From Candidatus Syntrophosphaera sp. (GTDB taxonomy: Bacteria; Cloacimonadota; Cloacimonadia; Cloacimonadales; Cloacimonadaceae), in contig JAHYIU010000003.1 in NCBI GenBank assembly GCA_019429425.1, positions 1 through 64,000 of the forward strand: 64,000 bases of DNA. The letters run 5' to 3'. The notes beneath the pieces are model-generated. The model saw only the letters and a program-made list of their open reading frames with translations, was not told the origin of the DNA and ran no database searches. Of the stretch, positions 732 through 11,405 are shown piece by piece. Position numbers and translations under genes: made by a program. Every line of letters begins with the position of its first letter. Within the stretch, counting starts at the first letter, position 1.

Positions 732-1283
732 ATGTACGAGCGCATTCAAAACAAGCGGTATCTTTACCGGGAACTGGAACAGTTCATGGACAAATACGCC
801 TCCATGAAGGGTGTCCGGGTGCTGCGGATCCTGCTCCGCGAGCCCAACACTCCCATCGACGTGATCGACCTGACCCTGCGGCTGAGGTTTGCCAATCCCC
901 GCCAGAAAGTGGTGGAGAAATTCAAGGCCGCCGCCTTTCCGGATATCCCCATGGCGGATGGAAAGGCCCTGGGACAGTACAAGAACAGGATGAACCAGCT
1001 CATCGCCCGGAAAGCCCGGCGCCTGGCGGAGGAGGAAGGCGCGGACTGCTCGGACCTGGATTGGGAGATCGGCTGGCTGAAGCGGGAACTGCGGAACATC
1101 ACCAAACCCAACGGCGATATCAAGAACATCAATCCGGATAAAAAGAAGGCCTACATGTCCTACCGGAACGCCATGGTCAGGCTGCTGAACAAGGCCCGCG
1201 AGGAGAATCCCGCGGTCTGGGATCTGGTCCGCCGGAGCCTGGTTTGCGGTAAAACCTTCATCTGGCTTGATAACCAGGGCTGA
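732..1283 (+). CDS. Hypothetical basic protein (183 aa)
   Basis: I do not recognise the family. The protein is helical, charged and lysine/arginine-rich (stretches such as LIARKARRLAEEE and NPDKKKAYMSYRNAMVRLL), with no signal peptide or membrane segment, so it is probably cytoplasmic and could bind nucleic acid. The start is well set by aaggagataaat before the ATG and by the promoter at 664-692. It lies 164 bp upstream of the Sel1-repeat gene on the same strand, inside the segment bracketed by the 23-bp inverted repeat, so it may belong to the same accessory element. Function not assigned. Confidence 0.7.
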   Translation: MYERIQNKRYLYRELEQFMDKYASMKGVRVLRILLREPNTPIDVIDLTLRLRFANPRQKVVEKFKAAAFPDIPMADGKALGQYKNRMNQLIARKARRLAEEEGADCSDLDWEIGWLKRELRNITKPNGDIKNINPDKKKAYMSYRNAMVRLLNKAREENPAVWDLVRRSLVCGKTFIWLDNQG

Positions 1284-1447: not shown

Positions 1448-2695
1448 GTGCGGGACGACCTGGAACAAGCGAAGAAAGCGACTTGGGAAGAGCAATGGCC
1501 GGAAGCGGCGGAGCTATGCGGAAGGGGCCTGGAGCGGCTGAAAGAACACGGAAACACCGATCCCGAGGGACTTGAGCTGCTCAAGAAAGCGGCCAGCCTT
1601 GGCTATCCCTGGGGCCACTACAAATACGCCATATCCTGTTTCTACCATCTGAACGAGCCCAAAACGGCCTTTCGCCACTTCAAAAAGTCCGCGGCGGCCG
1701 GTCACCTGGATTCCCTCTATCACCTCGGATTGCTGTATCAGAAAGGATTAGCGAGCCCTTCCCGCCTTTCCAAGGACCCCTCCGTGGCGGAGGTCCAGAT
1801 CCAAAGGGAGGCCGTCAGATGTTATCAGGAAGCCGCGGAAGGGGGCCACTGGACCGCCCAACTCAATCTGGGCCTGATGTACCTCAGCGGGATGGGGGTC
1901 GGACGCTTCTACAGAAAAGCCTTCAAGCTCATCTTCAGCTCCGCTTGCCAGAACTATCCTCCGGCGATGGCGCAGCTTGCACGGCTCTATCTGGATGAAT
2001 GCAAAGCCGGCTACAACCTGATCGAAGCCTATATCTGGGCGCTGCTGGAGGCAAACGGCGAGGGATGCAAAATAGCTGAGGAGATCGAGCCCAAACTCTC
2101 CCCAGCCCAGATCCACTCCGCCCAGGAGGAGGTTGACAGACGCCAGGATATCCTTTTGTCAAAAGGCTTCCTCAGCGAAGAAGATTTCGTGCCCTTCACC
2201 AAAAAGAAGGAAGAAAGCCCGGCCCCGCCTGAAACCGGGAAGCTAAAGACAAGCCATCAGAACGGAGGGACCGTCCCATCCGAATCCCCAAAAAGCGCCC
2301 ACCGCTCCGGGATCTGCCTGGCCGATTGGAACATCCAAAAACTCTCAGAGCTAAAACTGGTCTATTACCTAAAGGACAAGAATATCACCTTCTCATACCG
2401 GAAACACAAGGCCACCTTTCCCGCTCAAAAGCTCTTCCTCTCCAACTGTCTCACTCTCCTGCTCATGCACGACAAACACGTCAACTACGGGGAGCAGGAG
2501 GTCGGCTATTACGACACCACAATAGCGGATCAGCGCAGAAACTCAAAGCGCAATAACAGGGGTGTCGTTTCCGATTTCAACCTCGAATTCCGCAAACTCT
2601 TCGGCCTCGGAAAAGAGGCCAAGGCTTTTGAGTGGCTTCCCGCCGGCCCCAGCTACCAACTGAAGAGCAACTTCCACCTGGAAGTAAAATACTAA
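1448..2695 (+). CDS. Sel1-repeat (TPR-like) protein with unknown C-terminal domain
   Basis: Residues about 40-235 contain four to five Sel1-like repeats, seen as alternating helices with AASLGYPWGHYKYA, SAAAGHLDSLYHLGLLYQKG and AAEGGHWTAQLNLGLMYLSG. Such repeats make solenoids used for protein-protein interaction. A charged, proline-rich linker (about 245-285) leads to a C-terminal domain (about 290-415) that I cannot name. Its end (FNLEFRKLFGL...PAGPSYQLKSN) faintly resembles a winged-helix tail, which is only a guess. The start is GTG, chosen because aaggaggt lies 7 bases upstream. There is no signal peptide, so it is probably cytoplasmic. It ends about 160 bp from the convergent end of the NTPase gene. 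Confidence 0.7.
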   Translation: MRDDLEQAKKATWEEQWPEAAELCGRGLERLKEHGNTDPEGLELLKKAASLGYPWGHYKYAISCFYHLNEPKTAFRHFKKSAAAGHLDSLYHLGLLYQKGLASPSRLSKDPSVAEVQIQREAVRCYQEAAEGGHWTAQLNLGLMYLSGMGVGRFYRKAFKLIFSSACQNYPPAMAQLARLYLDECKAGYNLIEAYIWALLEANGEGCKIAEEIEPKLSPAQIHSAQEEVDRRQDILLSKGFLSEEDFVPFTKKKEESPAPPETGKLKTSHQNGGTVPSESPKSAHRSGICLADWNIQKLSELKLVYYLKDKNITFSYRKHKATFPAQKLFLSNCLTLLLMHDKHVNYGEQEVGYYDTTIADQRRNSKRNNRGVVSDFNLEFRKLFGLGKEAKAFEWLPAGPSYQLKSNFHLEVKY

Positions 2696-2856: not shown

Positions 2857-5800
2857 TTAATAGTTTATATATCTCTCTTCATATGTCATCTGCATTCTAT
2901 CGGCTTGTTTTTCGAGCATTGATATACTTGAATTAATCCAACTTCTATCCTTTATTGAGTTTTCTTCTTTCAATTTCTTCAGTAGCTCAATTTGGAGTCT
3001 AACATATGAGACCCCGGAACCGATTGTGAATGCTGAACCAAGATTAGAAAAGAGTGAGTTTCTGAAATCTTCACTCTGCCAATAATCTCTGATTAGGGAT
3101 ATCGCAAGAGACGTCCACTGTATGGATTCATTTTGTTTTTCATACAAGGGAATGATATTTATGACATGAGTAGCTCCCGAGAGACCTTTTTTCTTACACC
3201 ATGATAATATCTTATCTTCGTTAGTCATTCCAATCAGGTTACTTGAAATTCCCTCTCCTGCTGTCCAACCGAAACTATGTTTAAGACGCAATTGAAGTAA
3301 AGAGTCTTTTTTGACTAGTAATTTGGTAAACTCGTTCCAAAAATCGTCAAAGAAAGATTCATACAAGAGACTAAAAATTTCGTGACAAGAATCTATGGTC
3401 CTAACGTCTTTCTGATATAGTTCGATATATGCTTGAAAAACTAGCTTAGCTATCTTACTGCTATTTGAAGGAGAGTCTTTTAGATGAATGACCGCTAAGC
3501 TAGACCAGTCATACAACACATCTTCTATAAACGTGGTGTATTCCAAAAGTTCCTTATCAAGGAGTAGAGGTGTAATGAAATCACGATAACTCCTGTATAT
3601 TTTTTTGTTAACAAATATATCCATGTAACATATCATTAGAGTTATCTGTTTTCCGATAATACCATATGAACATAGCCTCTCATAGAATAACAACCTGTCG
3701 GGAATAGATAGGTGTTCCGTAGCCCTGCCGTACTTGAAGAAAACAAACTCTTTGATCATCTCAGGCTTAATGTCCACTATTGTGAATAATGAGTATATAT
3801 CATCCATTGATGCCTTAATTTTCGTTACAATCGTTAAAGCGTATTTATTTAAAGGGTCCTGTGAAACGAGATTTTCTATGAAATTAGTCTTGTCCTGATG
3901 CCCACACTCAGATAAAACTCCAATAACAAAACCGAGATTAACATTTGTATTTGTTTTGATAAACTCAAGTGAGGAATCCAGAACATCATGTACTTGGTAT
4001 TGCCTATTAGATAACATCCTACCAAAGTAATATGCTTCTCTTGCCATTGGATCAAAAAGAAGACCGAGATAGTTTGTAACTCGTATCTTATCTTTTATAA
4101 GATCATTAACCAAGCCTTCAATTTGTGATTCTGTAGTATTTGACTTGTCTTCAGTCTCATATTCTGGGGTCACTACAGTACACACGATTCTCATTTTGTA
4201 CTCATTATCATACAAAGACTCAACGTATCTAATAGCTGAATCACGATGTAGGGGATTCTTAAAATAATTGAACTTCATAGCAGTATTCAAAACAGATTGT
4301 AGCTTAATGATGTTATCGGAATTCCATTCCTGTTCCATAAAGACATTTAGGAAAGACTCCCAATAACCCGCACAGATTAAATTGCTAAGTCCATTAAGAA
4401 CTATATTGATTGCTTGCTCTTTGTACGCGTCTTTTGAAGTGATCATAACCTTTCTTAGAATAGAAAGACTGTTTGCTATGTAATCTTCTATCTCTTCCAA
4501 CGTTGTTGGACGGTAATCAATCTTAGATAATTGTCCTCCAATATATTCTGCACCGCATGATCGTGTAAAATAGCGTACTCTGATGCTCTCTTCAAGAATT
4601 TTCAGTATTAAGGGTAAGGTCGCATCATCGGCTTCTTCGTACCACTCAGATATTAGTCTCATTCTATCTTCTAGACTAGCTTCAGTACCAGGTAGGAAAA
4701 TATGAAACAAGTTTGCAAGTATCCCAGTTGCATTGTTGGCATAAGGTTCATTTTCCCCGAGTGCCAACTTGTAGAGGACTCGTATGGATTCATCAGAGAA
4801 CTCTCTTGAGAAAACAAGTTTTTCTAATGATAATACGATGTAACGTCTGATTGTATCCAATGATCTTATTTCTTCGTCTGACAATCTGCTAAATGTTTGA
4901 TTCATGACGTTTAAACATAATTGTGGGTGGACTTCACATATAGATAAGAATACTCTGGCTCCTCGTTCGGTTAAGAGGATATTGTCGGCCGAAAAAGGAG
5001 AAAACTTACTATTAACAAGCTTTTCAATAATAACTTCAATCTGGTTTAACCCAGCGAATAATTTTATCTGCTTACAAAAACTATCCATGAGTCCTACTTT
5101 TTCAATCTTTTCAAACAAACTATCTTGATCAGCAGGCTGTAATCTTGCTATGTAATCCTTTGCAAGGTACAAAGCCAAAGGTTTAGGTCTTAATGAAATA
5201 TATCTCCCTCTTACATCAAAAATGCCTTTCGCCAAACCTCTATTACATGTTTCCCAAAAAATCTGACTACGATCCGGTACATTCTCGTTGAAAATCACCA
5301 GGGTATTGGCAAGAAACTCTCTTTGTTCCTTAATCTCAGGTTGATTGCTGTCATCATAGAAACCAAAAAATGAGAACAGCGCACATACTTGTAAGACAAA
5401 TATTGCTCTTTCTAAGTCACTCCCATATATATTTTTCAGGATTTTTCGGGGGACATCTTCATCAATATCAAGTATATTGCCCCTGCTGCCAGACTTCCTC
5501 ATAGAAGAAATAGATTGCACTATTAACTGCGCAAAGAAGACAAAACCAGATGAATAATCCTCTATCCGAAACTTATCTGAAGCGCTCAATAAAGGGTTAT
5601 TATCAATATACATCTTGACTGCCTGAAGACAAACTTCCGGTCTAATATGTAACTTCAAACAACCTTTAAACTCATTATGGGTTGAATCCGCTTCTGATGA
5701 GATTATAATGATTTTATTATTACCACTTGTTTGGTCAGCTATCCTTTTAAGAGGGTAAGCTTCCTCTAAACCGCAGTTTTCAATAATGAAAACAAGGTGA

Positions 5801-6711
5801 TTATGCTTGCTTAACAATTTCTTAACTTCGTCAAAGGGAGTTATCGTTGATTGACGATTGATCCATATAATTCGCTTACCCTCTTTTCGTGATTGACTTG
5901 GATCTAGAGAAGACAAGTAACTATCAATTGCGTTAACAACAAAATGCGTTTTACCGATCCCCGATAATCCACTGATAACACATAGATTAGTAGTGTTATC
6001 ATCATTAAGAAATTTGATAATTTCATCTTTCCATTCAGAAAGGGTACCACACTCAATATAGCTGCTGGAGAGTAAACCAACATCTGATATAGATGTTCTC
6101 CAGATATTGTAGGGAAGTATGTCTGCAAAAAGAGATTTTCCCAAGACCCAGTTTACGTACTGTACCGCTAAAAAATCTTTATTCACCCATCTGCATACAG
6201 CATTTGCCTCAACCACCTTAATTCTATTCTTCGGGTATTTGCTGTTATAGTATTTCTTTATTACTTCATGAGTGGATTCAATAATCGAGCTTATAGTAGT
6301 TGATGGATACTCATACTTTATAACCCAGATAAAATGAGCACCATTATTCAGCAAATCGTTCAATCGCTTTTTCAACCCAAATTTATTCTCTTTTACACTT
6401 TTAAGATTCTCTTGTTCCGTCTTTGTGGGGAAGGGCCGCAGGCTTTTATTTACATTGGCGGGAGTATCAAATCTCCCTGCTTTAAACTGATAAACAGTAT
6501 GTGGACTTTTAATATGATCAGTCTGTTTCCCTGCATCAAGCACAAGAGCATCTATACCACCATCTTTTTTTGATGCAGAGCATAATTGTAGGTCGCTTAA
6601 CAGAATCTTGTTATTCGTCATTTCAAGAACAAGCAAAAACTCTATTAATTCAACAAACCCCTTACTATCGAACTCAGAGGCCATTATTTTCTCTGTTTTT
6701 ACCGAAAACAT
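2857..6711 (-). CDS. PD-(D/E)XK-like nuclease fused to a STAND-type NTPase with long helical C-terminus (Avs-like candidate)
   Basis: The 1284-aa protein starts at the ATG at 6711, which has GGAGG six bases upstream; the frame stays open 30 codons further 5' but without a ribosome site. Residues about 1-190 carry a GGID motif (D54) followed by YQFKAG (Q75, K77), the D...QxK pattern of Mrr/Cap4-type PD-(D/E)XK nucleases. A P-loop NTPase follows: Walker A GLSGIGKT at 248-255, Walker B-like LVFIIENCG at 306-314, sensor-1-like KIIIISSE at 333-340. Residues about 480-1284 are a long helical-repeat-like region without a clear motif, the usual place of the sensor in STAND proteins. Nuclease plus STAND plus repeats is the layout of single-gene Avs-type anti-phage proteins. 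The gene is strikingly AT-rich against its GC-rich neighbours, so recent transfer is likely. Its defence role is inference from architecture. Confidence 0.65.
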   Translation of the reverse strand: MFSVKTEKIMASEFDSKGFVELIEFLLVLEMTNNKILLSDLQLCSASKKDGGIDALVLDAGKQTDHIKSPHTVYQFKAGRFDTPANVNKSLRPFPTKTEQENLKSVKENKFGLKKRLNDLLNNGAHFIWVIKYEYPSTTISSIIESTHEVIKKYYNSKYPKNRIKVVEANAVCRWVNKDFLAVQYVNWVLGKSLFADILPYNIWRTSISDVGLLSSSYIECGTLSEWKDEIIKFLNDDNTTNLCVISGLSGIGKTHFVVNAIDSYLSSLDPSQSRKEGKRIIWINRQSTITPFDEVKKLLSKHNHLVFIIENCGLEEAYPLKRIADQTSGNNKIIIISSEADSTHNEFKGCLKLHIRPEVCLQAVKMYIDNNPLLSASDKFRIEDYSSGFVFFAQLIVQSISSMRKSGSRGNILDIDEDVPRKILKNIYGSDLERAIFVLQVCALFSFFGFYDDSNQPEIKEQREFLANTLVIFNENVPDRSQIFWETCNRGLAKGIFDVRGRYISLRPKPLALYLAKDYIARLQPADQDSLFEKIEKVGLMDSFCKQIKLFAGLNQIEVIIEKLVNSKFSPFSADNILLTERGARVFLSICEVHPQLCLNVMNQTFSRLSDEEIRSLDTIRRYIVLSLEKLVFSREFSDESIRVLYKLALGENEPYANNATGILANLFHIFLPGTEASLEDRMRLISEWYEEADDATLPLILKILEESIRVRYFTRSCGAEYIGGQLSKIDYRPTTLEEIEDYIANSLSILRKVMITSKDAYKEQAINIVLNGLSNLICAGYWESFLNVFMEQEWNSDNIIKLQSVLNTAMKFNYFKNPLHRDSAIRYVESLYDNEYKMRIVCTVVTPEYETEDKSNTTESQIEGLVNDLIKDKIRVTNYLGLLFDPMAREAYYFGRMLSNRQYQVHDVLDSSLEFIKTNTNVNLGFVIGVLSECGHQDKTNFIENLVSQDPLNKYALTIVTKIKASMDDIYSLFTIVDIKPEMIKEFVFFKYGRATEHLSIPDRLLFYERLCSYGIIGKQITLMICYMDIFVNKKIYRSYRDFITPLLLDKELLEYTTFIEDVLYDWSSLAVIHLKDSPSNSSKIAKLVFQAYIELYQKDVRTIDSCHEIFSLLYESFFDDFWNEFTKLLVKKDSLLQLRLKHSFGWTAGEGISSNLIGMTNEDKILSWCKKKGLSGATHVINIIPLYEKQNESIQWTSLAISLIRDYWQSEDFRNSLFSNLGSAFTIGSGVSYVRLQIELLKKLKEENSIKDRSWINSSISMLEKQADRMQMTYEERYINY

Positions 6712-7358
6712 ATATCCTCCTTCGGTACAGTAACAAATTATATTCCCAATTCTCACAATGATGGAGGTTGCCGTATTAGTCAAGCGAAAAACTGATGTCA
6801 CAAGAAATTTCAGATATATATCTGGATATATGAGTTTGAGATCAGAGAATCAATTCCACTTAAACCAATTTAATTATCCTTGTGCAAGCATCTCAAATAA
6901 TATCACAATCTGTCCAAGGTCATTTTTCAAGATTCTTTAATCAGAGAATCAAGGAACAAATCCTTTCCGAATCTAGTGTATTCTGAAGTGCAAGAATCAC
7001 GGACTTCGCCAGTCACATAGCACATGTACGTAATAGCCTCTAATTTCAAGCACTCTTTGTTTCAAACCAAATCATTCAAATCAATTCTGAACATTTCTTG
7101 GCTGTATCTCACGCTATACTGTATCTTTGGGTTATGATGGATATGTCCTGCTTTCTCAACCGTTCTCAACGCAAAGCTCTCAAAATTTCTCAATGAGAGA
7201 GATTGAGAATAGTTGAGAACTTTTTTGCCTCTCCAAGTCCCTAACTGTAAGCATATTATAGACTTTGCCCCCAGATATATCTCAATTTCAGCTCAATTGA
7301 GAACGTAGTAGTGTGGGTCCCGGTTTTCCGGGATACTACTGATCCAAGGAGGTACCCT
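6712..7358. promoter_or_regulatory. AT-rich divergent intergenic region between NTPase and primase
   Basis: No gene is visible in these 650 bases. The region separates two divergent genes and should hold both promoters. It contains a 13-bp direct repeat (atcagagaatcaa near 6841 and 6941) and, near the primase, a phased array of TTCTCAAC/GTTGAGAA boxes listed separately. Confidence 0.5.
7153..7303. promoter_or_regulatory. Phased TTCTCAAC / GTTGAGAA box array before the primase gene
   Basis: TTCTCAAC occurs at 7153 and 7163, with variants CTCTCAAA at 7177 and TTCTCAAT at 7187. Inverted boxes ATTGAGAA (7202) and GTTGAGAA (7212) follow. Neighbours are mostly 10 bp apart, one helical turn. Further ctcaatt and ctcaattgagaac copies lie at 7282-7303. 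Such arrays fit an operator or replication-initiator sites. Confidence 0.5.
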
Positions 7359-8651
7359 GTGTACCGAAATTACCATCCCACACTGCTGCTGGCAAAGGCT
7401 CCCGACCTCATCAGCGCCGGAAAAGCCCCTGCCGAACCCTTCGCCGATCTTGGCGAAGACCGCAATTCCGCCGTCAAGTATCCCGTAACTGTCGGCGCCA
7501 ACGTTTCTGATCCGTCCAGGATCTGCACCCGCGACATCGCCCACGTGATCTCCTGCGTCAAGCGGGGGATCGTGGAGGGTATTGACATCCGGGCCCAGAT
7601 CCTCACCATCCGCGAAATTCAAAACCAAACCCTGGCCAACGCCATGAAAAAACAGCTCCCCTGGTTCTGCGGCTCGCTCTGCGAAGGGCGGAGAAGCAAC
7701 AAGGCCGTGAAGCTGGCGCACTTCATCGTCTATGACCTCGACCACGTCCGGGATATCGAAGCCGTGAAGAGCGAGGCGATCGCCCGGCTGCCTTTCATCC
7801 GCTATGCCTTCCGCAGCGTGCGCGACGGGGTCAAGCTGATCGCCTGGCTGGACAAGCCCGTCACGAACGAAAAGGATTTCCGGCTGATCTGGGAATATCT
7901 GGCTTTGCAGATCGAGACCGTCCTCCGGCTCAAAGTGGACCGCACCAACGACTGGAGCCGGGCCTGTTTCTTCAGCTACGACCCGGACCTGATCGTCAGC
8001 CCCCAGTGCCTGCTGGTGAGCGTGGAATCCGTCCTCCGGGACGCCGGGTTTCTTTTGGAGATGGTCCGGGCGGGCAAAATGCGCGCCAGCCAGGTATTTG
8101 GATCTCAGGAACAGAGGGGAGAAGGCACGCTGGAGTCGAGCCCGCCCACGCTGGAGTCGAGCCCGCCCACGCTGGAGTCGAGCCCGCCGAAAGACAAGCT
8201 CGCTCCAATCAATCCCAGTCTGAGCGGCGGCGGGCATGGACTCCAGCAAGACCGATCAACTAAGACTGACAAAGGTCCTGGAGTCCATGCGAGCCGGAAT
8301 CAAAACCTGGCTGCTGAGCAGGAAAACCAACAGACCGGCCCGCTCGACTCCAGGGTTACCCACGCCGGCACGCTGGACTCCAGGGCAGACACCTTCGAGA
8401 AAGCCCGTATGATAGTCCAGAAGCTCGCCAAACTAAAGATCGAGTACATTGACTGGATCAGCATCGGAATGGCCCTGTACGCCGGATTTGGGGAAATGGG
8501 GCGCGAACTCTGGGACCTGTTCCAGGACAACCCCAATTACGCTGACGACCAGAGGCTGATGGACACCAAATGGCGCTCCTTCCGGCAGGTGCGCGAAATT
8601 GGCCTGGAAACCCTGTTCTTCCTGGGAGGCAAGTATGGCTGCCAGGTTTGA
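7359..8651 (+). CDS. VirE_N/BT4734-like primase with PriCT_2 C-terminal domain
   Basis: The N-terminal half (about 50-225) matches the VirE N-terminal/BT4734-like family, related to archaeo-eukaryotic primases: the acidic hhYDLD motif lies at 125-128, RDGVKLIAW near 155-163 and KVDRTNDWSRACFFSYDPD near 192-210. Residues about 349-430 look like a PriCT_2 primase C-terminal domain (IEYIDWISIGMAL ... DTKWRSF ... LETLFFLGGKYG). Expected role: making primers for replication of a mobile element. The GTG at 7359 is preferred because AAGGAGG lies just upstream. The linker (about 255-345) is low-complexity and carries three exact copies of a 21-bp repeat encoding TLESSPP. The next gene is a DUF3987 helicase-like ATPase 314 bp away, the usual partner. 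Confidence 0.7.
   Translation: MYRNYHPTLLLAKAPDLISAGKAPAEPFADLGEDRNSAVKYPVTVGANVSDPSRICTRDIAHVISCVKRGIVEGIDIRAQILTIREIQNQTLANAMKKQLPWFCGSLCEGRRSNKAVKLAHFIVYDLDHVRDIEAVKSEAIARLPFIRYAFRSVRDGVKLIAWLDKPVTNEKDFRLIWEYLALQIETVLRLKVDRTNDWSRACFFSYDPDLIVSPQCLLVSVESVLRDAGFLLEMVRAGKMRASQVFGSQEQRGEGTLESSPPTLESSPPTLESSPPKDKLAPINPSLSGGGHGLQQDRSTKTDKGPGVHASRNQNLAAEQENQQTGPLDSRVTHAGTLDSRADTFEKARMIVQKLAKLKIEYIDWISIGMALYAGFGEMGRELWDLFQDNPNYADDQRLMDTKWRSFRQVREIGLETLFFLGGKYGCQV
8126..8188 (+). repeat. Three tandem 21-bp repeats inside the primase linker
   Basis: Three exact head-to-tail copies of a 21-bp unit beginning cacgctggagtcgagcc keep the frame and encode TLESSPP three times. The core ctggagtc and its inverse gactccag recur through 8235-8385 and in intergenic DNA near 11900, 35343-35476 and 57775-57825. 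Confidence 0.8.
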
Positions 8652-8965: not shown

Positions 8966-10303
8966 ATGCGTAACGAACTCCTCTCCCTCTTCGGCAGGAA
9001 GCGCAGCGAGGTCCTGGACCAATCCCGCCTCCCGCTCTTCATGCGCGAATACCTGGACGCCGCCACCCGGAACACGGATTGCAATCCCGGCCTGCTGCTA
9101 ACGGCCTGGCTGCCCTTCATCGCGGTCAATATCGGCAACAGGGTCTACATGCTCTCCAATTCGCTGCGGATCTATCCCAACATCTGGAGCTGCCTGATCG
9201 GGCCCAGCAGCGTGAGCCGCAAATCCACGGCCATCACCTATGCCGGCTACACCCTCAAGCCCCACGACCGCGCCCTCGAGGACCTCCCCGTGGACGAATA
9301 TGAGGCCAAGACCCTGCTCCTCTCCAACGTCACCCTCGCCAAACTGCTGGTCTGCCTCGCGATCAATTCCACCCGCCTTTTCGTCCACCACGAGCTTTCC
9401 GCCTGGCTGGCCGAGATGGGCAAACACTTCAACGACGGCTACAAACAGACCATCACCGAGCTCTACGACGGGGTGGACAAAACCGTGCGCAACCTCACCC
9501 GGACCGACCGGATCAAGCGCCCCGCCTTCAGCATCGCCTCGTCCACCACGGAAGCCTGGATCTACAAGAACATCCGCGACAACTCCGACCAGATGGGCGG
9601 ATTCCTGCAAAGGTTCCTCTACTTCGTGATCCGCGACGTGAACCTGGACGAGATCGACCTCCTCACCCGAAGCGGCGAGGATTTGGAAGAATATCTGGGG
9701 GTCTACGACGCCTTCTACGAGATCTTCCGCTCCCTGCCCGGCCAATACCGGCTGCGCCTGGGCGAGGAGGCCGTCGGAGTGCGCGACGAGGTCTACGTGG
9801 CCAAATACCGCCACTGGTTCGCCAAAAACAACGATTCCCTGATGAGCTATTTCACCAGGATCTACGACGGATACTTCTATAAATTCTGCATCATCATCAC
9901 CGTCTTCGACGCCTGGGACCGGCTCAAATTCGCCATTCCCAAAGGAACCGTCGACAGCGTCATGGCCGAACTGGAAGTCTCCGCCGAAACCACCCGCCAG
10001 GCCCTCTACCTCTGCGATTTCTACTTCGCCAACACCATCCCCTTCCTGGAGATCGTGGACGAACAGGACAAACTCGCCGGGGAACGCAAACTGGTGGAGA
10101 TCCTGATCCAGAAATACAACGGCAAAGCCGGACACTCCGCCCTGCTCAACGCCTCCCACATGAAGAAACGCGATTTCAAAGAGTGCATCGAATCGCTCAT
10201 AGAAAGGGAAGCGATCAGCGTTGAGAGCTACAAATCAGTGCAGGGGAACAGCGGTAAAATGTATGTTCTGGCACGAGAATTGATGGATTCCTGGGGAAAG
10301 TAA
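8966..10303 (+). CDS. DUF3987-family helicase-like ATPase of a mobile element
   Basis: The 445-aa protein resembles the DUF3987 (YfjI-like) family, predicted P-loop ATPases found beside primases in plasmids, phages and integrative elements. A Walker A-like loop IGPSSVSRKST lies near residues 73-83 and a Walker B-like LFVHHE near 135-140. These are followed by the family-typical ASSTTEAW and GGFLQRFLYFVIRD stretches. The ATG at 8966 is chosen because aggagg lies six bases upstream. It probably unwinds or loads DNA for the upstream primase. A terminator lies 14 bp after the stop codon and then the symmetric iteron region at 10364-10730, so primase, helicase and putative origin are contiguous. 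Confidence 0.7.
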   Translation: MRNELLSLFGRKRSEVLDQSRLPLFMREYLDAATRNTDCNPGLLLTAWLPFIAVNIGNRVYMLSNSLRIYPNIWSCLIGPSSVSRKSTAITYAGYTLKPHDRALEDLPVDEYEAKTLLLSNVTLAKLLVCLAINSTRLFVHHELSAWLAEMGKHFNDGYKQTITELYDGVDKTVRNLTRTDRIKRPAFSIASSTTEAWIYKNIRDNSDQMGGFLQRFLYFVIRDVNLDEIDLLTRSGEDLEEYLGVYDAFYEIFRSLPGQYRLRLGEEAVGVRDEVYVAKYRHWFAKNNDSLMSYFTRIYDGYFYKFCIIITVFDAWDRLKFAIPKGTVDSVMAELEVSAETTRQALYLCDFYFANTIPFLEIVDEQDKLAGERKLVEILIQKYNGKAGHSALLNASHMKKRDFKECIESLIEREAISVESYKSVQGNSGKMYVLARELMDSWGK

Positions 10304-10316
10304 AAAACTGGTATCA

Positions 10317-10342
10317 AGCCGTCCTCCGGGGCGGCTTTTTTA
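10317..10342 (+). terminator. Rho-independent terminator after the helicase gene
   Basis: Stem AGCCGTCC / GGGCGGCT with a TCCG loop, followed by six T. It closes the primase-helicase transcription unit. Confidence 0.85.
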
Positions 10343-10363
10343 TACTCAGACGCATCTCACCTG

Positions 10364-10730
10364 TTCACCTATTCACAACCCCCAAAAACAGCTTGTGAAT
10401 AGGTTAAAGGATTATCCGGCAATTAAATAAGCTCACCTATTCACAAAAAACAGCCCTCAGCTTAAAAAGAAAACCGGAGGCCTGAGAGGGGAGGAAGTGC
10501 AGTTCTTTCTATCTTATATATACATATATATAAATATATTACTATATAATATCATATATAGTATATATATCTATATTGCATATAGTTACTAATGCACATA
10601 TACTACTCTTTGTTTCCAAATCTCCCAGATATACAGAGCCCTGTTTTTTGTGAATAGGTGGGCTTAACAACATCATTATCAATGCGTTAACCTATTCACA
10701 AACTACTTTTCACCCCTGTGAATAGGTGAA
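10364..10730. other. Candidate replication origin: mirror-symmetric iterons around an AT-rich core
   Basis: The 11-mer CCTATTCACAA occurs at 10368-10378, 10436-10446 and 10691-10701, and its inverse TTGTGAATAGG at 10393-10403, 10648-10658 and (one mismatch) 10716-10726. Start-to-start spacings are 25 and 43 on the left and 43 and 25 on the right, so the arrangement is a mirror image about position 10547. Similarity between the two roughly 88-bp arms extends past the boxes (ggttaa after the second box, caaaaaacag after the third). The centre, about 10508-10610, is almost pure A/T (tatatatacatatatataaa). Iterons plus an AT-rich unwinding zone beside primase and helicase genes suggest an origin. 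A replication-terminus, attachment or partition site is possible. Confidence 0.6.
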
Positions 10731-10767
10731 ATGGTCAAACGGGATCCGGTGCTTCTTGACATGCCCC

Positions 10768-11011: not shown

Positions 11012-11034
11012 CGTAACCCACTATATATGGAGGG
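11012..11034 (-). repeat. Right arm of 23-bp inverted repeat (pair at 302-324)
   Basis: Perfect inverse of 302-324. The homology appears to continue loosely into the neighbouring gggaa/ttccc bases. It lies 252 bp upstream of a broken paralogue of the gene at the left edge, in the same relative orientation, which keeps open the shared-promoter explanation. Confidence 0.6.
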
Positions 11035-11170: not shown

Positions 11171-11270
11171 TGTTTTAGCGTTTTAGCGTTTTAGCGTTTT
11201 AGCGTTTTAGCGTGCCACCGGTCTCTTTATCCGTATAATCCGTATAATCCGTTGAATCCGTAGGAAAAAA
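11171..11270 (+). repeat. GTTTTAGCG tandem array and ATCCGT tract
   Basis: Five head-to-tail copies of a 9-bp unit (gttttagcg) are followed by atccgtataatccgtataa-type words. They separate the 23-bp repeat from the broken gene at 11286. Confidence 0.65.
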
Positions 11271-11285: not shown

Positions 11286-11405
11286 ATGCGAGCCTATTTC
11301 AAAAACATGATCCAGGCCTACCGCGGCACCAGCCCCGGAGGGGCGATAAAACTTAGCCCAGGGTGGAAACCCTGGGTCAGTGAAAACCGGTTATTGTTTG
11401 GATAA
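11286..11405 (+). pseudogene. Broken paralogue of the left-edge gene, interrupted by a repeat
   Basis: A good Shine-Dalgarno (aaaggagga) precedes the ATG at 11286. The first 15 codons encode MRAYFKNMIQAYRGT, which follows the pattern of MKVIFKYGISTYSGT at 265-221 on the other strand. The frame then runs into a GCCCCGGAGGGGC/CCCAGGGT repeat unit at about 11328 and stops at 11405 after 39 codons. I read it as a gene cut short by insertion of, or recombination with, that repeat. Confidence 0.5.
11328..11378 (+). repeat. GCCCCGGAGGGGC + AGCCCAGGGTGG..CCCTGGG hairpin pair, copy 1
   Basis: Two consecutive short hairpins (gccccggaggggc and cccagggtggaaaccctggg) separated by an A/T-rich linker. Further copies lie at 11662-11712, 11830-11890 (inverted), 57452-57505 and 57618-57673 (inverted). 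Confidence 0.75.

Follow-up and report, generated by a model that had tools for sequence, protein, structure and literature searches.

A mirror-symmetric two-armed site behind a DUF3987 helicase gene as a probable replication origin of a multi-copy element family in Candidatus Syntrophosphaera

In a stretch of 64,000 nucleotides of Candidatus Syntrophosphaera DNA (hereafter, the window), a primase gene and a gene of the DUF3987 helicase family are followed by a site of six short boxes arranged around an AT-rich core (Table 1). The two neighbours named in the initial annotation, which was based on the sequence alone, were confirmed by profile searches, one protein matching PF08800 and PF08707 and the other PF13148 (DUF3987). 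The primase contains the sequence IVYDLDH, which resembles the hhhDhD motif, and three 21-bp repeats at positions 8129–8190 of its gene encode repeated TLESSPP units between the two domains. The stop codon of the helicase gene is separated from the left arm of the site by 56 bp. The only Pfam domain detected in the helicase was DUF3987, with no DUF927-type domain such as that of the SaPI Rep family, and both the profile match and the primase association used to recognize DUF3987 helicases of mobile elements were found. Its Walker A-like region (GPSSVSRKST; positions 9200–9229, residues 79–88) is divergent, most members strictly retaining GPSS[VI]SRK[ST]T rather than the canonical GxxxxGK[ST], and the acidic pair normally found in Walker B is missing from the corresponding region (FVHHELS). 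Given the divergence of the Walker A region, helicase activity of the DUF3987 protein is not assured.

Table 1. Features of the primase–helicase locus and of the two-armed site (window coordinates)
Feature	Position	Strand	Details and basis
183-aa protein without known family	732–1283	+	relatives at three other loci (L063, L065, L020)
Sel1-repeat protein	1448–2695	+	Pfam; homologues L062:1321–2568, L063:7693–9591
Probable cargo, 1314-aa protein resembling PD-Lambda-4 defence protein A	2857–6801	−	PADLOC PDLC03991 1.1e-18; composition
BT4734-like/PriCT-2 primase	7311–8651	+	446 aa from GTG 7311 (alternative GTG 7359); PF08707 1.3e-9, PF08800 5.6e-9
DUF3987 putative initiator helicase	8966–10303	+	445 aa from ATG 8966; PF13148 3.5e-13 and family alignments
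C-terminal winged-helix domain, proposed box reader	10061–10285 (residues ~366–440)	+	AlphaFold2; Foldseek; identity switch
Terminator-like hairpin and T run (CCGTCCTCCGGGGCGGCTTTTTT) between helicase stop and putative origin	10318–10345	+	seen in sequence; function inferred
Left arm of inverted repeat	10359–10458	+	boxes 10368–10378 (+), 10393–10403 (−), 10436–10446 (+)
AT-rich core, proposed melting region	10498–10594		~97 bp
Right arm	10636–10735	−	boxes 10648–10658 (−), 10691–10701 (+), 10716–10726 (−, one mismatch)

The gene for the 1314-aa protein has a G+C content of about 36%, compared with about 57% in its surroundings, and the match to PD-Lambda-4 protein A covers part of the profile, the N-terminal part of the protein remaining without a match. 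At another locus, L020:8656–11763 (G000 C8), a type ISP/type IIG restriction–modification gene starts about 80 bp behind the corresponding site, so at least two elements carry defence genes. Relatives of the Sel1-repeat protein adjoin the primase–helicase genes of contigs C13 and C20 of the genome G003. A family of proteins of about 150 aa (M-K/R-x-x-F-K-N-M-L-x-x-Y-x-G-x-x-D-G-L-V-Y-Y), with no Pfam or PHROG match, is represented at positions 50–265 (−) and 11286–11330 (+) of the window; the copy at 11286 is interrupted some 15 codons in, and tandem GTTTTAGC octamers lie shortly ahead of it (11175–11214). This family often lies beside two-armed loci and has 1 to 24 copies in each of the 15 Cloacimonadota genomes searched; its inclusion in the element was not supported, since it also occurs in genomes without a complete helicase, with 24 copies in G034. 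A promoter-like motif (GTTACCCACTATATATAGGGG/CGTAACCCACTATATATGGAGGG) at positions 302 (−) and 11014 (+) recurs ahead of several locus genes, often with a variable imperfect palindrome of about 90 bp following it. We considered TAACCCACTATATATGGAGGG at these two positions as terminal inverted repeats and discarded this assignment, because it also precedes the helicases of L021 and L023 and FKNMLLGY-type genes; being found ahead of several genes, it looks like a promoter.

Scanning of the window located five exact copies of the box CCTATTCACAA and a sixth copy, at 10716, with one mismatch (CCTATTCACAG), all at the places initially reported. The box starts are spaced by 25 and 43 bp on the left and by 43 and 25 bp on the right, and the positions of all three mirrored pairs, which have opposite orientations, sum to 21094, giving an exact mirror at 10547. 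When six boxes were placed and oriented at random, an exact mirror arose in about 6 per million trials, in keeping with the earlier remark that the exact symmetry is unlikely by chance. In shuffled versions of the window, sequences with no more than one mismatch to the 11-mer had a mean of 0.7 matches and never reached six; the exact 11-mer is present at this single locus in the whole 2.38-Mb genome. The middle of the site, initially described as nearly pure A/T, has 60-bp windows that reach 92% A+T, the sole such stretch across the 64-kb window. The two arms also share sequence outside the boxes, as had been noticed: aligned as an inverted repeat, they score 92 along 100 bp, compared with 21.7 ± 3.3 for shuffled sequences, none of 300 of which reached the observed value (21 s.d. 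above).

The initial annotation suggested a search of related genomes for the 11-mer in the same geometry, but only one of the 60 relatives searched (G012) shares it and nearly every locus has its own boxes, so the 11-mer was rejected as the conserved unit; the architecture is kept instead. In the congener G012, contig C89, which could derive from another species, has the same six boxes with the 25/43 spacing and an exact mirror, but the sequence between the boxes differs and the core is shorter by 21 bp. The box words of all other loci (for example GCGTAATTGA, CAAATAAGC, AGGTCTTC, GCAAAAAAGC and AGTTGGTATAA) differ. A common arm motif (TTGTGGCACA) was dropped as it was found in some loci only, and the idea of a helical phasing in the core lengths was discarded as numerology. 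What the loci have in common is an AT core of some 65–115 bp (typically ~95 bp) between inverted arms, with a DUF3987 gene adjacent. In the host genome, a two-armed site was found at all five complete DUF3987 loci (C3, C8, C19, C34 and C62), that of C34 lying 0.75 kb downstream, beyond a second helicase fragment. Across the genus, long inverted arms and an AT core lie behind 14 of the 18 complete helicase genes, the other four comprising a half origin at L063 and three loci (L052, L053 and L056) at which the contig ends within ~1.2 kb. The arm score was unmatched by any of 300 shuffles at each of the 35 sites tested, and 34 of these sites follow a DUF3987 gene, or a 3' fragment of one, at a distance of no more than ~0.8 kb. 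The genomes used for the family are fragmented assemblies, except for one from another genus, and contigs often break at two-armed sites.

The C-terminal region of the helicase was predicted by AlphaFold2 to form a winged helix (element order H-E-H-H-E-E; pLDDT about 75–85), in a model that was weak overall (mean pLDDT 50, four sequences), and the top Foldseek matches of this domain were PadR/MarR/TFE winged helices, with E-values above 0.1. Three helicases of G003 have bodies that are 92% identical in protein and ~94% in DNA, diverge abruptly from codon ~385–415 and are followed by unlike sites. Comparison of the window helicase with a fragment copy of the same genome (L106) revealed ~97% identity up to position 10136 (codon ~390) and ~63% beyond it, and the boxes of the two loci differ. 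Over 26 loci, the similarity of the winged helix was correlated with that of the two-armed site (Mantel r 0.57, p 0.0005); the partial correlation controlling for the helicase body, calculated for the 13 complete helicases only, was r 0.25 (p 0.025). Since the domain and the downstream site change together in near-identical helicases, the winged helix probably reads the boxes.

Searches with the window helicase identified 33 C-terminal-only fragments, as opposed to two N-terminal-only fragments. The starts of these fragments are scattered at residues 186–395 (often 334–345), mostly without a start codon, and directly abut unrelated DNA. An intact two-armed site lies behind 20 of the 30 fragment loci that were fetched; of the remaining ten, six are interrupted by the end of a contig, and two more, L114 and L134, have cores that are below the detection threshold yet align with others. 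The host genome contains at least 14 two-armed sites (5 with a complete helicase, 3 with a C-terminal fragment and 6 alone) and G003 contains at least 21 (6, 8 and 7, respectively). Some of these sites were found genome-wide with a model of the AT core, the inverted arms being tested afterwards, and the copy numbers are lower bounds because the detectors rest on A+T content and arm scores. Complete copies within one genome have mutually unlike arms (scores of 18–51, with one pair at 106). Several sites without a helicase closely match one complete copy (C5–C36, 356; C11–C19, 289; C21–C62, 197; C54–C8, 195; C22–C27, 159), the nearest match of the window site is a solo site on C18 (score 61), and other sites, among them C38, C29 and C10b in G003, match no resident helicase. 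The existence of many intact sites with no helicase nearby means that a model of bare origins needs action in trans or recent loss. A multi-copy family with many members devoid of a helicase suggests a selfish element spreading as little more than its own origin.

Some of these loci have further peculiarities. Three two-armed sites with similar boxes lie in tandem within 700 bp, without a helicase gene, at L149:646–1344 (G003 C1). At L018, L055 and L133 (G012 and G008), the site lies just behind a glutamate dehydrogenase gene and the helicase is complete, degraded or absent, a pattern suggesting that the site has long stayed in one place while the helicase was lost step by step. Matches to the Rfam family RF01687 (Acido-Lenti-1 RNA) at L130:2199–2314, L131:2136–2559, L111:2341–2385 and L113:899–1179 recur within arrays of GC-rich palindromes that immediately follow the putative origins of one group.

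Two insertions are absent from relatives. The fragment copy L106 (contig C4 of the host genome) adjoins a tRNA-Lys gene, and the orthologous place in G001, G004 and G009 has ~0.2–0.4 kb instead of ~2 kb, with no AT core. The copy L131 of G010 has no counterpart at the orthologous position of G003, which has a 93%-identical copy of L131 elsewhere with an identical internal deletion. Loss in the relatives may account for these absences case by case, but the L131 pair is difficult to account for unless a copy that was already defective has moved. No linked integrase was found at any locus, the two tyrosine recombinases of the host genome lying on C85 and C1, away from the five contigs with DUF3987 loci; no serine recombinase was found in this genome, and no target-site duplication was seen. 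One copy family has a fixed 3' end at an imperfect palindrome of ~100 bp, and another (L057/L110) has no such shared end.

The initial annotation linked the site to origins of plasmids and mobile elements. In classic plasmid origins, the iterons lie on one side as direct repeats and are recognized by a Rep protein, with no helicase. The site described here shares with such origins the repeated putative binding sites and the AT-rich region proposed to melt, but it is chromosomal and mirrored, and its proposed reader is part of a helicase. A plasmid was rejected, since C8, C19, C62 and C34 are flanked by housekeeping-like genes and the helicase gave no tblastn match in 72,556 plasmids; the window copy lies close to the left end of its contig. 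A sequence search of the PDB gave no match; no relatives of the helicase were found in viral contigs, in which five pattern hits were close to our chance expectation. A phage search yielded three remote matches (21–26% identity), and a scan of named genomes yielded only four Cloacimonadota contigs, none of them new to the analysis, and one remote match in Scalindua. The origin reading itself was strengthened by the recurrence of the architecture behind DUF3987 helicases and by the joint change of the boxes and the predicted DNA-binding domain, but it has to be recast, as the site is not a plasmid origin and is one of at least 14 chromosomal sites.

The two-armed plan, first taken to be unusual, is itself known: in every PICI origin, an AT-rich region lies between two sets of iterons (PMC6092414). 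In PICIs (SaPI and EcCI), as here, a primase and an initiator helicase are followed by a two-armed site immediately 3', and the iterons differ by element (PMC6092414, PMC7581432). However, the helicase is of the DUF3987 type here and of the DUF927 type in SaPI Rep, and the sites described here have long, nearly exact inverted arms and at least 14–21 copies per genome, many without a helicase. A primase and putative initiator followed by a two-armed site were found, an integrase and attachment site of the element were not, and the scan of window proteins near the element detected neither a terminase nor a capsid gene, no packaging or phage genes being seen. By analogy, the site may work like a PICI replication module, yet PICI membership fails on the integrase, the attachment site and the helicase family. 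The C-terminal domains of SaPI Rep and SCCmec Cch2 bind the origin directly downstream of their own genes, Rep apparently as two hexamers (PMC7581432). SCCmec elements of pattern 2 (Cch2, CCPol-MP) pair a primase with a self-specific helicase whose C-terminal domain recognizes repeats just downstream of its own gene (PMC7581432), an arrangement that the window locus, with its predicted winged helix, may share, but they have an unrelated primase-polymerase, integration by Ccr recombinases and three short direct repeats rather than mirrored arms. DUF3987 has been described as a predicted helicase of mobile genetic elements (PMC5862659) and as a primase marker or replication protein of PICMIs (PMC10803314). 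These satellites of Vibrionaceae share with our locus a DUF3987-type replication protein (PMC10803314), recognized here by the PF13148 match, but are also defined by an integrase, AlpA and Fis, and no linked integrase was found here, in another host phylum. In the PLE of Vibrio cholerae, the DNA-binding domain of RepA covaries with the origin, and a phage nuclease mimicking the initiator is held to drive the exchange (PMC8263062); PLE differs in having a RepA_N initiator without helicase or primase and phage-dependent replication. In the open-licence literature searched, we found no description of an origin for a DUF3987 helicase, or of a chromosome in which at least 14 origin-like sites with two arms are dispersed with no linked recombinase and, for the most part, no complete helicase.

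An origin beside a primase/helicase pair is the best-supported reading of the site, with replication activity inferred, and we consider it probable, as the best explanation of the whole, that 10359–10735 is the origin used by the upstream DUF3987 helicase and part of a family of multi-copy selfish elements. The C-terminal winged helix would bind the three 11-bp boxes of each arm, and two helicase assemblies in opposite orientations, probably with a single ring on each arm, would stand face to face with the AT core between them; loading of two rings in this way would require mirror symmetry. The core would then melt and the helicases would load head-to-head, one per strand, leading to bidirectional unwinding, with the BT4734/PriCT-2 primase making primers and a host polymerase copying the DNA. 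The family would comprise primase–helicase–origin units with defence cargo, a helicase with its origin, a 5'-truncated helicase with its origin, and the origin alone, lone origins probably being maintained or moved in trans. We also considered a more specific scenario of recombinase-less, origin-driven selfish elements, which we hold to be possible but doubtful: origin firing in place would over-amplify the surroundings; broken, 5'-truncated copies holding the origin would be re-inserted by the host; helicase-less origins would be non-autonomous and served in trans by one matching resident helicase; and each autonomous copy would be driven to its own box specificity by a joint swap of the winged helix and origin.

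It is unlikely, in our opinion, that the sites are remnants, that is, once-replicating origins that are now inert or dying chromosomal repeats, the window copy included. The many copies without primase and helicase, the ragged 5' truncation points, the half origin at L063 and the frameshifts or internal deletion of some fragments would fit such decay. However, the arms are complementary at all 35 sites tested, near-perfect in several solo or fragment copies (scores of 190 for L199 and 180 for L135), the window genes are open and intact, and the C-terminal, origin-bearing ends are retained over N-terminal ends by 33 to 2. The boxes could also be operators, through which the winged helix would autoregulate neighbouring genes, the symmetric AT core being a structure that serves regulation or the termination of transcription. 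The PadR/MarR class of winged helices consists of regulators, and promoter-like TAACCCACTATATATGGAGGG at 11014 and the terminator-like hairpin at ~10320 are consistent with this, but three boxes per arm of ~110 bp around ~95 bp of nearly pure A/T, located 3' of a gene and not at a promoter, are not the layout of an operator; the motif at 11014 is 280 bp from the arms, and at many sites there is no helicase gene that could be regulated. This explanation appears improbable.

We give still less weight to a small MITE-like transposon, moved by an unlinked transposase and with the arms as its terminal inverted repeats, which would account for dispersed, multi-copy units of 350–420 bp with internal symmetry and for insertions missing in relatives. 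The arms are not at the ends of the element, as related copies share several hundred bp past both arms and variable parts of the helicase on one side; they also change together with the winged helix of the helicase, and target-site duplications were not seen. The resemblance of CTATTCACA to a DnaA box might point to a chromosomal origin or a DnaA-dependent site, but the single dnaA gene is on C27, with five perfect TTATCCACA boxes 150–310 bp behind it. As dnaA and these boxes are on another contig, the window site, one of many with other sequences and with boxes that differ from the TTATCCACA consensus at two positions, is very improbable as a chromosomal origin, the least likely of these alternatives and one that we rejected.

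If the reading of the site as an origin used by the DUF3987 helicase is correct, the helicase–origin module of staphylococcal and enterobacterial satellites would also exist in an uncultured phylum and with a helicase from another family. The natural series of matched winged helices and boxes could allow the specificity of helicases for their origins to be decoded. With 14–21 origin-like sites per chromosome, many without an initiator gene, it would be of interest to determine whether these sites fire and how the host tolerates or controls them. Elements consisting of an origin only would represent a simple kind of selfish DNA.
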